A stretch of 64,000 nt of DNA, from the NCBI GenBank assembly GCA_944391625.1, contig CALXUG010000001.1, positions 1 through 64,000 of the forward strand. The letters are read 5' to 3'. Below, piece after piece: positions 8,807-57,062 of the stretch. Positions within the stretch are counted from its first letter, which is position 1. The number at the start of each line of letters is the position of its first letter. The notes beneath the pieces are model-generated. The model saw only the letters and a list, made by a program, of their open reading frames with translations, did not search any database and was not told the DNA's origin. This DNA comes from an uncultured Clostridia bacterium (GTDB lineage Bacteria; Bacillota; Peptococcia; Peptococcales; Peptococcaceae). The position numbers and the translations under genes are program-made.

Positions 8807-9469
8807 TTATATCGCTGTGCTAATGTGACCATCGGCTAAATATAACCGGTAATCGGCAAATAAATCGCCTTCCCGCGGGTCATGGCTGATTAAAATAATG
8901 GGAATCTGCACAGCATGTTTTAATTCTAAAAACTCCTGATATACAATTTCTTTTGTTTTAATATCTAAAGCTGAAAACGGCTCATCCAGCAGCAGCAAAT
9001 CCGGTTTGGTCACAATGGCCCGCGCTAAAGCGGTACGCTGTTTTTCACCGCCGGAAATCTGACGGGGATATTTTTTGCGCAGATGCTGAATCCGAAAGGT
9101 ATCCATAATATAAGCTACATAATCCAGCATTTCCTGCCGTTGCTTTCCATCGCGGGCGCGATTGTTTACGCCGTACAGAATATTTTTTTCTACAGTCATA
9201 TTGGGAAACAGCGCATAATTCTGAAACACATAGCCGATATTTCTCTGCTGAACCGGCACATCAATCTGCTTCTGCTTTTGATATAACAGTCGATGGCCAA
9301 TCTGCACATAGCCGTCGTCAGGCTGCAGCAAACCGGAAATACAGTTGAGCAGCGTGCTTTTTCCTGAGCCCGATTCTCCCTGCACCACCAGCACGCCCTG
9401 CGGAAACTGATACTCCACATCCAGTACAAAACGATCCAGTTGTTTTTTCAGATGAAAAGAAACGGACAT
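8807..9469 (-). CDS. modC: Molybdate ABC transporter ATP-binding protein
   Basis: This is the ATPase of the ModABC importer. The 220-residue protein has Walker A GESGSGKST (about 31-39), Q-loop VFQNYALFPNM, signature ISGGEKQR, Walker B LLLLDEP and the H-loop ISHDPREG. It lacks the C-terminal molybdate-binding (TOBE/Mop) domain of long ModC forms. A TOBE domain is instead found in the divergent regulator at 11265. It follows modB by nine bases. Confidence 0.9.
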   Translation of the reverse strand: MSVSFHLKKQLDRFVLDVEYQFPQGVLVVQGESGSGKSTLLNCISGLLQPDDGYVQIGHRLLYQKQKQIDVPVQQRNIGYVFQNYALFPNMTVEKNILYGVNNRARDGKQRQEMLDYVAYIMDTFRIQHLRKKYPRQISGGEKQRTALARAIVTKPDLLLLDEPFSALDIKTKEIVYQEFLELKHAVQIPIILISHDPREGDLFADYRLYLADGHISTAI

Positions 9470-9478
9470 CTGTATTCC

Positions 9479-10144
9479 CTACTTTCCCATATAATTTCGT
9501 TTTTCCAACCAGCGGTTCAGCGTTAAAATCAATACAAAACTGAATACGGTCATAATCAGTACCAATACATTGGCCTCGGTATTATCGCCATTTTCTACCG
9601 CATAATAGATTGCCGTAGGCACCGTCTGCGTTTTGCCGGGAATATTGCCGGCCACCATTAAGGTTGCGCCAAACTCGCCTACCGCCCGGCAGAAGGACAG
9701 CACAATACCGCTGATAACGCCCGGCCAGGCCAGTGGAAAGGTGATTGTCCAAAACACCTTCCATTCGCTGCTGCCCAAAGTACGGGCCGCTTTTTCATAA
9801 ACCGGATCTACACTGATAAAAGCTGCTTTGGCATTTTGATACATCAACGGCAGTGATACCACGCAGGCTGCAATTACAGCAGCATACCAGGTAAAAATGA
9901 TCTTTATATCGAATAATTCCAACAACGTACTGCCGATAGGCCCCCGTTTGCCCAACAAAATCAGCAAAAAATAACCGGTTACCGATGGCGGCAAAATCAT
10001 AGGCAGCGTGAGCAAGGTTTCCCAGAAATTTTTGCCCGGTATATTTTTTTTATTTAACAGATAAGCCAGGGATACCCCAAACAAAAAAGAAAATATGGTG
10101 GCGATAGAGGCAATTTTTAAAGATAATATGATCGGTTCCAGCAT
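9479..10144 (-). CDS. modB: Molybdate ABC transporter permease
   Basis: The 221-residue membrane protein has five or so hydrophobic helices and the permease EAA-type motif EKAARTLGSSEWKVFWTIT, followed by FPLAWPG, typical of ModB/CysT permeases. The start at 10144 has AAGGA six bases upstream; an in-frame extension to 10207 has no such site. It stands between modA and modC in one operon. Confidence 0.92.
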   Translation of the reverse strand: MLEPIILSLKIASIATIFSFLFGVSLAYLLNKKNIPGKNFWETLLTLPMILPPSVTGYFLLILLGKRGPIGSTLLELFDIKIIFTWYAAVIAACVVSLPLMYQNAKAAFISVDPVYEKAARTLGSSEWKVFWTITFPLAWPGVISGIVLSFCRAVGEFGATLMVAGNIPGKTQTVPTAIYYAVENGDNTEANVLVLIMTVFSFVLILTLNRWLEKRNYMGK

Positions 10145-10259: not shown

Positions 10260-11066
10260 TTACAGTACGGTAAAGCCATAAGATTCAAAAATCGCTTTTG
10301 CATCGTCACCAGCTAAATATTCATAAAAATCTGCTGCAGCTTCCGGCTGTGGTGCAGCTTCCATAATAGCGGAAGGATAGTTTACTGCTGTGTAGCTGTC
10401 GCTTGGTGCATCGCCGATAATTTTACCGCTTTCCAACAGCAGCGCATCGGTATGATAAACCAGACCGGCATCAGCATCCCCGCCGTCTACATAGTTCAGT
10501 ACAGAACGCACATTTTTAGCATATACCAGTTTTGGCTGAATATCTTCCCACATGCCCAGGTTTTCAAACATTTCCTGCGCATACTGACCAGCTGGTACTT
10601 CACTTGGTTCGCCAATGGCAATCATTTCTACTCCGTCTCCCAGTAAATCTTCTACACTGGTGATCTGATCTGCTTTTTCGGCAGAAGCAATCAAGGTCAG
10701 GTTATTTCCCAACAAATCTTTTCTGGTGTCAGCAGCTAATGCCCCTTCCTCTTCCAGCGTATTCATATATTTCTGATTGGCAGAAATGAAAATGTCGCAG
10801 TCAGCGCCTTCGCTGATTTGTTTCTGCAATGTACCGGATGCTTCATAAACAGCAACCACTGTATTGCCGCTTTCTTCCTGATATTGGGCAATCATTTCAT
10901 CCAGTGCATCGGTTAAGCTGGCTGCCGCAAATACATGTATGGTGGCTCCCGCCGCCTGGTCATCCGCTGCGCCGTCTGTACCGCTGTTGCCGCAACCGGT
11001 CAGCCCTAAGCCGCATAACAAAGTCAAAATCAGTCCTGCACACATAGTTTTCTTCATACGTTTCAT
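10260..11066 (-). CDS. modA: Molybdate-binding lipoprotein
   Basis: ModA captures molybdate (or tungstate) outside the membrane for ModBC. The 268-residue protein has a lipoprotein signal peptide ending in the lipobox LTGC (about residues 22-25). The anion-binding start is FAAASLTDALDEM, and the later segment YAKNVRSVLNYVDGGDADAGLVY is characteristic of the family. GGGGG lies seven bases before the ATG. Transcription starts from a strong promoter at 11139-11167, directly before a 10-bp tandem repeat. Confidence 0.93.
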   Translation of the reverse strand: MKRMKKTMCAGLILTLLCGLGLTGCGNSGTDGAADDQAAGATIHVFAAASLTDALDEMIAQYQEESGNTVVAVYEASGTLQKQISEGADCDIFISANQKYMNTLEEEGALAADTRKDLLGNNLTLIASAEKADQITSVEDLLGDGVEMIAIGEPSEVPAGQYAQEMFENLGMWEDIQPKLVYAKNVRSVLNYVDGGDADAGLVYHTDALLLESGKIIGDAPSDSYTAVNYPSAIMEAAPQPEAAADFYEYLAGDDAKAIFESYGFTVL

Positions 11067-11089
11067 CTTAAATCCCCCTAAATTTTTTA

Positions 11090-11130
11090 AAACTAAACTA
11101 AAACTAACTAAAACTAACTAAAACTAACTA
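11090..11130 (-). repeat. 10-bp tandem repeat in the modA leader
   Basis: Three exact copies of AAACTAACTA (11101-11130) are preceded by a degenerate copy. The unit length equals one helical turn, and the array covers the first transcribed bases of modA, just after the -10 hexamer. It could be a multi-site operator or a slippage-prone repeat. Confidence 0.85.
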
Positions 11131-11138
11131 TATTACAC

Positions 11139-11167
11139 AGTATACGAATGTTTCCTATTCTTGTCAA
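11139..11167 (-). promoter_or_regulatory. modABC promoter
   Basis: Minus strand TTGACA, 17 bases, TATACT. The start point falls near 11132, at the edge of the tandem repeat. Confidence 0.75.
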
Positions 11168-11184
11168 GTACTTTGAAATACGAC

Positions 11185-11219
11185 TTGTCATTCCCCTTCC
11201 TTTTCGTTTATAATAAACG
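11185..11219 (+). promoter_or_regulatory. Promoter of the ModE-like gene with overlapping palindrome
   Basis: TTGTCA and TATAAT are 18 bases apart. The -10 lies inside the inverted repeat CGTTTA-taa-TAAACG (11205-11219), a plausible autoregulatory operator. It is back to back with the modA promoter. Confidence 0.6.
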
Positions 11220-11264: not shown

Positions 11265-11801
11265 ATGGCTGAAGAATTTTTTACGCCGGAAGAAGTGGCA
11301 GCAAAGCTAAAGCTGTCCAAATATACCATTTACGAAATGATTAAACGGGGGGATTTAGAAGCCCATCGAATCGGCCGCGGCCTGCGTATCAGTTCCGAAC
11401 AGCTGGAAGGATACCTGCATCAGCATAAAACTGACGAAGATAACGTCTTTGATGCCCAACTGGTGCAAAGCGAGCAGGGAACCTACGCACGGCTGCTTCA
11501 CTGTGAACCGGAGGTGCTGTTTCATGTATCTACACCATTGACTGGCGCTGTCCGAGTCAGTATTGAGCCGGAAAATATTATTATCAGTCACACCCAGTTG
11601 GTCTGCAGCGCCCGCAATGTACACAAAGGCATGGTAACAGCCATACAGGAAGAGAACGGACACTGTATGCTTACCTTATATATCGGCGTACCGCTGAAGG
11701 TAGCCCTTACATCCTATTCGGTACAGGAAATGGATCTGAAGCCGGGCGATATGTTATATGCTATCTTCAAATCCATGTCCGTAAAAGTAACTGCACGGTA
11801 A
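11265..11801 (+). CDS. HTH-TOBE molybdate-responsive regulator, ModE-like
   Basis: The 178-residue protein has an excisionase/MerR-type helix-turn-helix at the N terminus (FTPEEVAAKLKLSKYTIYEM) and a C-terminal TOBE/Mop-like fold (about 105-178), a domain that binds oxyanions. The architecture is that of the one-component molybdate sensors found beside mod genes in Firmicutes, not of E. coli ModE. The ATG at 11265 has TGAGGTGA upstream; the TTG at 11232 lacks a site. It is divergent from modA, so it probably controls modABC through the repeat at 11090-11130 and its own gene through the palindrome at 11205-11219. Confidence 0.82.
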   Translation: MAEEFFTPEEVAAKLKLSKYTIYEMIKRGDLEAHRIGRGLRISSEQLEGYLHQHKTDEDNVFDAQLVQSEQGTYARLLHCEPEVLFHVSTPLTGAVRVSIEPENIIISHTQLVCSARNVHKGMVTAIQEENGHCMLTLYIGVPLKVALTSYSVQEMDLKPGDMLYAIFKSMSVKVTAR

Positions 11802-46815: not shown

Positions 46816-46933
46816 ATATGTACAAGCCAGATTTCTATTGTTTGTAATGTTCCATCGTTGGGAGATTGCTTGTTGCCTGTCCTTCTGTCATGGACAAAAT
46901 CTTGCTGTTTGCGATTTATTTGGTTAATAACGA

Positions 46934-46949
46934 TGTTTCACGTGAAACA
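46934..46949. promoter_or_regulatory. parS site 1
   Basis: TGTTTCACGTGAAACA matches the Bacillus parS consensus at all 16 positions. ParB/Spo0J loads here to recruit SMC and position the origin region. Confidence 0.93.
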
Positions 46950-47049
46950 ATTTTATTTTGTAATGTTCCATCATCGGGAGATTATTTGTTGACTATCCTT
47001 CTGTTATGGACAAAATCTTGTTGTTTGTAATTTATTTGGTTAATAACGA

Positions 47050-47065
47050 TGTTTCACGTGAAACA
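47050..47065. promoter_or_regulatory. parS site 2
   Basis: The same perfect 16-mer lies exactly 116 bp from site 1 in the next repeat unit. Confidence 0.93.
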
Positions 47066-47084
47066 ATTTTGTTTTGTAATGTTC

Positions 47085-47395
47085 CATCATCGGGAGACTG
47101 TTTGTTGCCTGCCCTCCTTCACCGGACAGTTGCTTGTCAGTCTGCTTCACTATGGACTGTGTCCAGTTCAGCAAGACAGACTGCGCATCTGTCCGTTTCA
47201 ATGTCGACAACGGCAACAAAACATCTCCCTGACTTGTGTGCATAAGGCTGGCCTAGCCTTTGCCAAAATTCCGAATTGGGATGGATTATCGCGCCAAATG
47301 TCTGAACCGAAGTGGACGAAGTCCAAACTGAGGCAGACATTTTAGCGATTGTCCAGCGCCACTGAGGGATGAGCAAAGATAGGACAGCCGACCGT
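47085..47395. repeat. Hairpin-rich repeat module
   Basis: It begins with the 31 bases shared with 37301-37331. It contains two large imperfect hairpins (47123-47195 and 47283-47354), each with a TGGAC-nnn-GTCCA heart, and ends with the segment similar to 37360-37393. It has no parS of its own. Confidence 0.75.
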
Positions 47396-56879: not shown

Positions 56880-57025
56880 CTTTACCTGAAAGATTCCCTG
56901 CCCCAAACCACAGGTTGCTTCGTCGGTGTCCAATCGCTTTCCAGAGCTTCGTCAGAATCCAGTCCTTTTGCCTGAGAGTTTACGCTCTTGCACCTTCGGC
57001 GATGTATAGCTACATTCTCTCCCAG
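56880..57025 (-). ncRNA. Tandem glycine riboswitch
   Basis: Two glycine aptamers lie in series. Aptamer I (56962-57023) has GGGAGAGAATG, CGCCGAAGGTGCAA and CTCTCAGGCAAAAGGAC. Aptamer II (56880-56950) has GCTCTGGAAAGC, CACCGACGAAGCAACC and CTTTCAGGTAAAG. Both show the GCCGAAG/CCGACGAAG and CAGG core bases of this class. It precedes the gcv operon and a terminator, the usual arrangement in which glycine turns the operon on. Confidence 0.96.
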
Positions 57026-57062
57026 ATTCGTCATCCGAAACAGACTATTCAAATTTAAGCTT

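Follow-up and report, generated by a model that had tools for sequence, protein, structure and literature searches.

What reads a string of 10-bp repeats laid over the start of a molybdate-uptake operon, and what would such a reader do there? We address this question for a locus of an uncultured Clostridia bacterium, in a stretch of DNA of 64,000 nucleotides (the window) in which the modABC operon lies back to back with the gene of a putative regulator.

A direct-repeat array at the start of modA

The operon, on the minus strand, comprises modA for the molybdate-binding protein (10260..11066; TIGR01256, 207.5 bits against a cut-off of 62.5), modB for the permease (9479..10144; TIGR02141, 254.4 bits, cut-off 182.6) and a gene for a ModC-like ATPase of 220 aa (8807..9469; a partial match to the ModC model). 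An AT-rich spacer of 198 bp lies between modA and the regulator gene. Read on the modA strand, it runs from a predicted modABC promoter (11139..11167), namely TTGACA (11167-11162), 17 bp and TATACT (11144-11139), through eight bases, three copies of TAGTTAGTTT, one of TAGTTTAGTTT and an A/T run, to AGGGGG, the ribosome-binding site predicted from the sequence (11071..11076), and the modA start at 11066. The four 10-bp direct repeats of TAGTTAGTTT, the last unit being of 11 bp, make up the candidate operator (11088..11130, minus strand), delineated by repeat finding and conservation. This array begins 8 bp beyond the predicted -10 and, given the position of that promoter, would occupy about +3 to +45 of the transcribed leader; all start codons and transcription starts given here are predicted.

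The sequence-only reading had described a 10-bp tandem repeat running from the transcription start of modABC at exactly helical-turn spacing. The repeat itself is real: AAACTAACTA occurs in three exact head-to-tail copies (11101-11110, 11111-11120 and 11121-11130) and a fourth time with one additional A (11090-11100); Tandem Repeats Finder reports 11088-11130 with a period of 10, 4.2 copies, a 96% match and a score of 77, the second-highest of its 26 rows for the window after a 116-bp repeat at 46841; and the lag-10 identity of 20/20 has p=0.0005 in 2000 dinucleotide shuffles of the 198-bp spacer (p=0.002 when any lag from 5 to 15 is allowed). Its placement from the transcription start likewise stands, but the spacing of 10, 10, 10 and 11 bp is close to the 10.5-bp turn rather than exactly one turn. 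The two-unit word TAGTTAGTTTTAGTTAG is found nowhere else in the 2.97-Mb genome, even at one mismatch. In the window, the modA leader has no predicted RNA structure (z +1.5) and no covariance-model match to the Moco riboswitch (RF01055).

The regulator gene has a predicted promoter of its own, TTGTCA-18-TATAAT (11185..11214, plus strand), back to back with that of modA. Over its -10 lies a 15-bp palindrome, CGTTTATAATAAACG (11205..11219, plus strand), which is indeed present as the earlier reading had it, exact and rare within the window, and for which we claim no function. Its conservation did not hold up in the spacers of three congeners (G001, G004 and G005): examined by eye and unscored, these retain the -10 and short partial dyads, with no extended palindrome found. 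The palindrome is therefore probably an AT-rich -10 plus chance, and autorepression of the regulator through it was rejected.

A regulator joining an excisionase-type domain to a ModC-like sensor

The regulator (178 aa; 11265..11801, plus strand; identified from profiles and a structural model) matches the Pfam domains HTH_17 (49.7 bits, cut-off 27) and TOBE (34.2 bits). The TOBE profile is passed by the second half of the sensor domain only. Among the NCBIfam models, the protein matches the excisionase domain (excise, TIGR01764) and parts of the C-terminus of WtpC/ModC, without a full-length family match, and no ModE N-terminal model is among the matches listed; PF12727 (PBP_like) has no match in the protein.

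In an AlphaFold2 model based on six aligned orthologues (mean pLDDT 84), residues 1-54 superpose on BldC in its complex with smeA DNA (6ama; Z 9.1, 1.9 A over 54 residues), and also on the BldC-whiI complex (6amk, Z 8.7), Pukovnik Xis (4j2n, Z 8.2) and RdfS (8dgl, Z 7.9). As modeled, this part is an excisionase/BldC-type wHTH; a Z near 8 is modest by itself, but the profile matches to HTH_17 and excise point the same way. Residues from about 54 to 178 superpose on the ModC regulatory domain in ModBC (3d31, Z 18.3), on ModG (16.4) and on the di-Mop unit of ModE (about 15), the families named being those among the matches listed. By the same model, residues 55-178 are a di-Mop-like oxyanion domain of the ModC/ModG/ModE kind, and since ModE and ModG are superposed through a unit of two Mop folds, the first half of the sensor, invisible to profiles, is predicted to be Mop-like as well. 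The linker between the two parts (residues 54-57) is short and of low confidence in the model. The regulator was not found in the phage records searched.

The ModC-like ATPase of the window aligns to positions 2-212 only of the 353-position ModC model, under its cut-off; the protein thus ends short of the C-terminal regulatory domain. Short modC-like open frames (225 to 233 aa) are also present in G001, G004 and G005, and the modC frames of G018, G058 and G203 are of 354 to 369 aa. All four species of the window's genus that have modA carry the truncated form, without the regulatory domain; here it is the regulator, not the transporter, that bears the sensor fold.

Conservation of the array with the regulator

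Near-full-length relatives of the regulator were found in six of 120 relatives and in five of a phylum-wide sample of 398 genomes (three of these being new), and further carriers in four of 54 genomes from the family of G228 (again three new) and in Acetoanaerobium noterae, for a total of 13 genomes. The regulator gene is divergent from modA in eight of the 13 (G000, G001, G004, G005, G018, G058, G203 and G298; the G298 contig ends within modA, which was recognised by reading). All eight modA-regulator spacers show lag-10 periodicity (p 0.0005 to 0.007), and their arrays have the core TAGTTnGnTT in common, with regulators as little as 36% identical to that of the window. Seven of the arrays align gap-free, and 19 of the 33 columns do not vary. 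In the 21 units that they comprise, the successive positions are T in 21, A in 21, G in 20, T in 21, T in 21, a free base, G in 18, T or G in 20, T in 20 and T in 18. Both the number and the sequence of the units differ from species to species, the number ranging between two good units (G004) and five (G203), by reading. The sequence-only reading had suggested that the array might vary by slippage; the differences seen here are between species. Unit models made from the window's genus alone detect the arrays of the G058 family, and models made from that family alone detect those of the genus; both also find the arrays of G018 and of the A. noterae tupA gene, in every case at p=0.001, the lowest value that 1000 shuffles allow.

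A profile built from seven arrays of two lineages was searched in 28 whole genomes, with 150 first-look candidates scored in many of them, and in the A. noterae record. The modA array ranks first in all seven training genomes (E 2.5e-6 to 1.1e-4), as is expected by construction since the profile was built from those arrays. Outside the profile, the first of six matches in A. noterae (E 3.5e-4) immediately precedes tupAB, and the first of 11 matches in G018 is its 215-bp modA-regulator spacer, at an E of 0.08, which is a background-level score. In all 16 genomes without the regulator, the best profile E among the first-look candidates scored is 0.054 or worse. Further matches in the window's genome, at C13:22211 (E 0.11; within a coding frame), C3:10914 (E 0.40) and C5:90771 (E 1.5), are at background level, and thus modA is its only clear array site. 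The Moco riboswitch family RF01055 has no match at the loci L003, L006, L008, L037 and L123, and a scan of genome contigs found two ModA relatives with no regulator nearby.

In A. noterae (a record of 2.63 Mb, labelled as a plasmid in PLSDB), the regulator and the array are unlinked: the regulator gene lies about 28 kb from the tupAB array, with moeA, fdhD, ferredoxin/hydrogenase-like genes and mobA as neighbors (names from reading the translations). The operon downstream of the array specifies a tungstate-type transporter, with a TupA-like PBP_like_2 protein followed by a permease. No PBP_like match of TaoR size (>200 bits, in a frame of 314-358 aa) is present in A. noterae or in the window's genome; hence, neither has a TaoR-type rival for the array. 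Across regulator-bearing genomes, the array is linked to the promoters of Mo/W transporters.

The arrays also share a geometry with respect to the promoter. In the two main lineages, the first unit of each of the seven arrays follows, at a distance of 5, 7 or 8 bp, the -10 of a promoter that matches 11 or 12 of 12 consensus bases. The arrays of G018 and of A. noterae tupA are reversed and end 0 and 4 bp before the -35 of a weaker promoter, matching 9 and 10 of 12 bases, respectively (another candidate promoter in the G018 spacer scores 10). Consequently, in all nine arrays, from about four independent lineages, the TAG end points toward the promoter, a polarity that would fit a head-to-tail protein array meeting RNA polymerase by one defined end.

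Carriers and controls that do not fit

Four of the 13 regulator genomes do not simply fit this pattern. No array was found in G228, which has Moco riboswitches at its modA/tupA-like genes; two successive Moco riboswitches precede the modA/tupA-like genes of both G104 and G228 (L061 726-1101 and L064 558-926). The modA of G439 has no array, the genome-best site being upstream of an XdhC gene (E 0.57). In G441, GGTTGGTTTATGTTAG is common to two modA-like promoters by eye; the unit models give p 0.05 to 0.3, and it was not counted as support. In G431, which has no modA match, the best array site stands before an HTH_17-Uma2 gene. This gene, for a putative endonuclease, is preceded by a multi-unit 10-bp array (L117 1500-1570), which suggests autoregulation via the same DNA-binding mode, outside metal control.

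The control G141, of the same genus as G058, has no HTH_17-TOBE match, and the unit models match its modA weakly (p 0.013 to 0.025). A Moco riboswitch is present at its modA (L054 2304-2419), in the place where its relatives carry the array, an apparent swap of the control device.

Arrays at other HTH_17 genes

We further surveyed about 330 bp upstream of 34 HTH_17 loci at which the HTH part was matched (500 shuffles, p floor 0.002), leaving out L014 and L019, matched in the TOBE part only, and the ModC-type loci L040-L044. At p<0.02, lag 10 was found at 14 of the 34 loci, lag 9 at none and lag 11 at one. The 14 are the eight modA-linked HTH_17-TOBE loci and six of the 22 other HTH_17 loci; four HTH_17-TOBE genes unlinked to modA have no lag-10 array in the same stretch upstream of themselves. 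Five HTH_17-PBP_like (TaoR-type) loci have 10-bp direct repeats upstream (L010, L012, L013, L015 and L021), with a GTTTGTTT-like core in L010 and L012. By reading, the genes of L012 and L013 are divergent from a ModA-like gene, and L021 (in G003) adjoins genes for an aldehyde ferredoxin oxidoreductase-like and a MoeA-like protein. With TaoR-type loci and even the HTH_17-Uma2 gene of G431 carrying 10-bp repeats, the one-turn array seems to go with the HTH_17 domain irrespective of the sensor attached.

Within the window's genus, G002, G003 and G007 have an HTH_17-PBP_like gene with neither modA nor a full-length HTH_17-TOBE match, and the repeats upstream of the TaoR-type gene at L021 are TTTCG 10-bp repeats (p 0.004).

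Relation to known systems

The TaoR family, which combines HTH_17 with PBP_like, reportedly comprises regulators of tungstoenzymes and of Mo/W transport; TaoR itself is an activator at aor. The window's regulator resembles this family in its HTH_17 domain, in the kind of targets and in the 10-bp direct repeats seen here at five TaoR-type loci, but differs in its sensor, which is TOBE/ModC-like as against periplasmic-binding-protein-like. TOBE regulators listed for gut microbes include ModE, ModE-like and TaoR-like proteins, the last having HTH_17, PBP-like and TOBE domains (PMC11980592), whereas the window's regulator has no PBP-like domain. With ModE, the regulator shares an HTH followed by two Mop-like folds, a superposing C-terminal domain (Z about 15) and its location at modABC; its HTH, however, is an HTH_17 and not of the ModE N-terminal type. 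Likewise, the ModE operator is given as an inverted repeat, ATCGnTATATA-N6-TATATAnCGAT (PMC545781), in contrast to the direct-repeat array with one-turn spacing that is the candidate operator here.

For the DNA-binding part, the closer parallels are with proteins that load on direct repeats. BldC of Streptomyces is described as binding head to tail to varying numbers of direct repeats, with a half-site AATTXXXX(C) over 9 bp (PMC5859096); the likeness lies in the wHTH fold of its DNA complexes (6ama/6amk) and in direct-repeat operators of varying unit number, but BldC, at 68 residues, has no sensor domain, unlike the window's regulator. Recombination directionality factors are likewise described on tandem repeats one turn apart, bound head to tail with high cooperativity (PMC7498355), and HTH_17 proteins have been grouped with such binders (PMC11963761). 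Lambda Xis, Pukovnik Xis, Apl and RdfS share the HTH_17-type fold (4j2n, 8dgl) and the one-turn direct repeats, but these phage excisionases and directionality factors are recombination factors without a metal sensor. The Desulfovibrio integrase-MOP chimeras, also found at mod loci, are comparable in that a domain from phage recombination is joined to ones that bind molybdate (PMC545781); these, however, have a phage integrase domain rather than an excisionase, and the same source attributes the inverted-repeat operator to a separate ModE. No study of an HTH_17-TOBE regulator with its operator was found in the open-access papers searched, most subscription papers being beyond the scope of the search; the combination of a ModE-like sensor, a DNA-binding domain of the excisionase type and an operator array to match, with one-turn spacing, may have been described before.

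Proposed mechanism and alternatives

Taken together, and with good support from the comparison across genomes, we consider it probable that the array is the operator of the divergent HTH_17-TOBE regulator, which would load head to tail, gated by an oxyanion, and repress the uptake genes. Briefly, each 10-bp unit (core GTTnGnTT) would be the site of one excisionase-type wHTH, and since the units are about one turn apart in the same orientation, the protomers would occupy one face of the DNA in head-to-tail order, the arrangement shown for BldC, Xis and Apl. Head-to-tail loading is the best reading of the array because excisionases and BldC have been published on direct repeats of about this spacing. 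The ModC-like C-terminal domain would bind molybdate (or tungstate), pair the chains and alter the affinity of the assembly, such that the uptake genes would be off when the oxyanion is plentiful. At modA, where the array lies over the predicted transcription start and extends to about base 45, its occupation by the regulator would block either open-complex formation or promoter escape. A two-fold ModC-like dimer has no obvious fit with head-to-tail repeats, though the linker at residues 54-57 might reconcile the two. The earlier suggestion of cooperative loading along one face of the DNA gains from the conserved array and the Xis/BldC-type domain, from which we infer the binding of the regulator, its dependence on molybdate or another oxyanion, cooperativity and repression as the sign.

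The sign and ligand logic could be reversed, with the apo-regulator binding the array or the regulator acting as an activator. The arrays of G018 and A. noterae tupA, being just upstream of the -35, occupy a site that activators use too, but seven of the nine arrays lie over +1 to about +45, where an activator is improbable, and ModE represses modABCD according to PMC11980592; accordingly, we regard reversal as unlikely. That the array belongs to some other DNA-binding protein, for example another HTH_17, its adjacency to the regulator reflecting shared locus ancestry, appears more doubtful still: it would account for the similar array at the HTH_17-Uma2 gene of G431 and for the 10-bp arrays of TaoR-type genes, the core being alike in two, but not for the array at the unlinked tupA of A. 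noterae, a genome with the regulator but without a TaoR-type match, nor for the want of a strong array among the candidates scored in the 16 regulator-less genomes.

The sites of the TRAP protein are UAG triplets, and the array, which is transcribed, reads UAG about every 5 nt, with eight such triplets inside. An action as RNA, through TRAP-like sites or as an element of translation or stability, is nonetheless very improbable and largely refuted: the genome (96.2% complete) has no TRAP (PF02081), the second UAG of each unit is unconserved, being TTTGG in several genomes, the leader is unstructured (z +1.5) and matches no riboswitch family, and in G018 and A. noterae the array, reversed and ahead of the -35, cannot be leader RNA. 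Least credible of all is a functionless simple repeat, made by chance or slippage; three perfect units in an AT-rich spacer of the window's genome might evoke it, but diverged units are conserved at the same place across lineages, and these cross-lineage tests refute it.

Beyond the preferred reading of the array as the regulator's operator, we regard as evenly balanced the broader proposal of an unnamed family of oxyanion sensors, in which a phage-excisionase domain joined to the ModC/ModE sensor fold reads a polar one-turn direct-repeat array whose head always abuts RNA polymerase, with the number of units and their match to the consensus setting the response. Were this true, a molybdate/tungstate regulon would be readable from DNA alone, through a searchable operator code for Mo/W uptake (10-bp units with the TAG end toward the promoter) that serves lineages without a ModE-type site or a Moco riboswitch at modA. 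The family would then be a ligand-gated version of the BldC/Xis filaments and a molybdate/tungstate-gated addition to the few bacterial transcription factors that assemble head to tail on direct repeats, and the natural arrays of roughly two to five units would offer a series in which to compare array length with the dose response of a gene.

Other elements in the window

The top-scoring repeat of the window consists of two 116-bp tandem repeats (46841-47115) just downstream of a comM/YifB-like gene, each with an exact TGTTTCACGTGAAACA, which we take to be the ParB/Spo0J parS consensus. A glycine riboswitch is present on the minus strand at 56950-57034 (61.8 bits).
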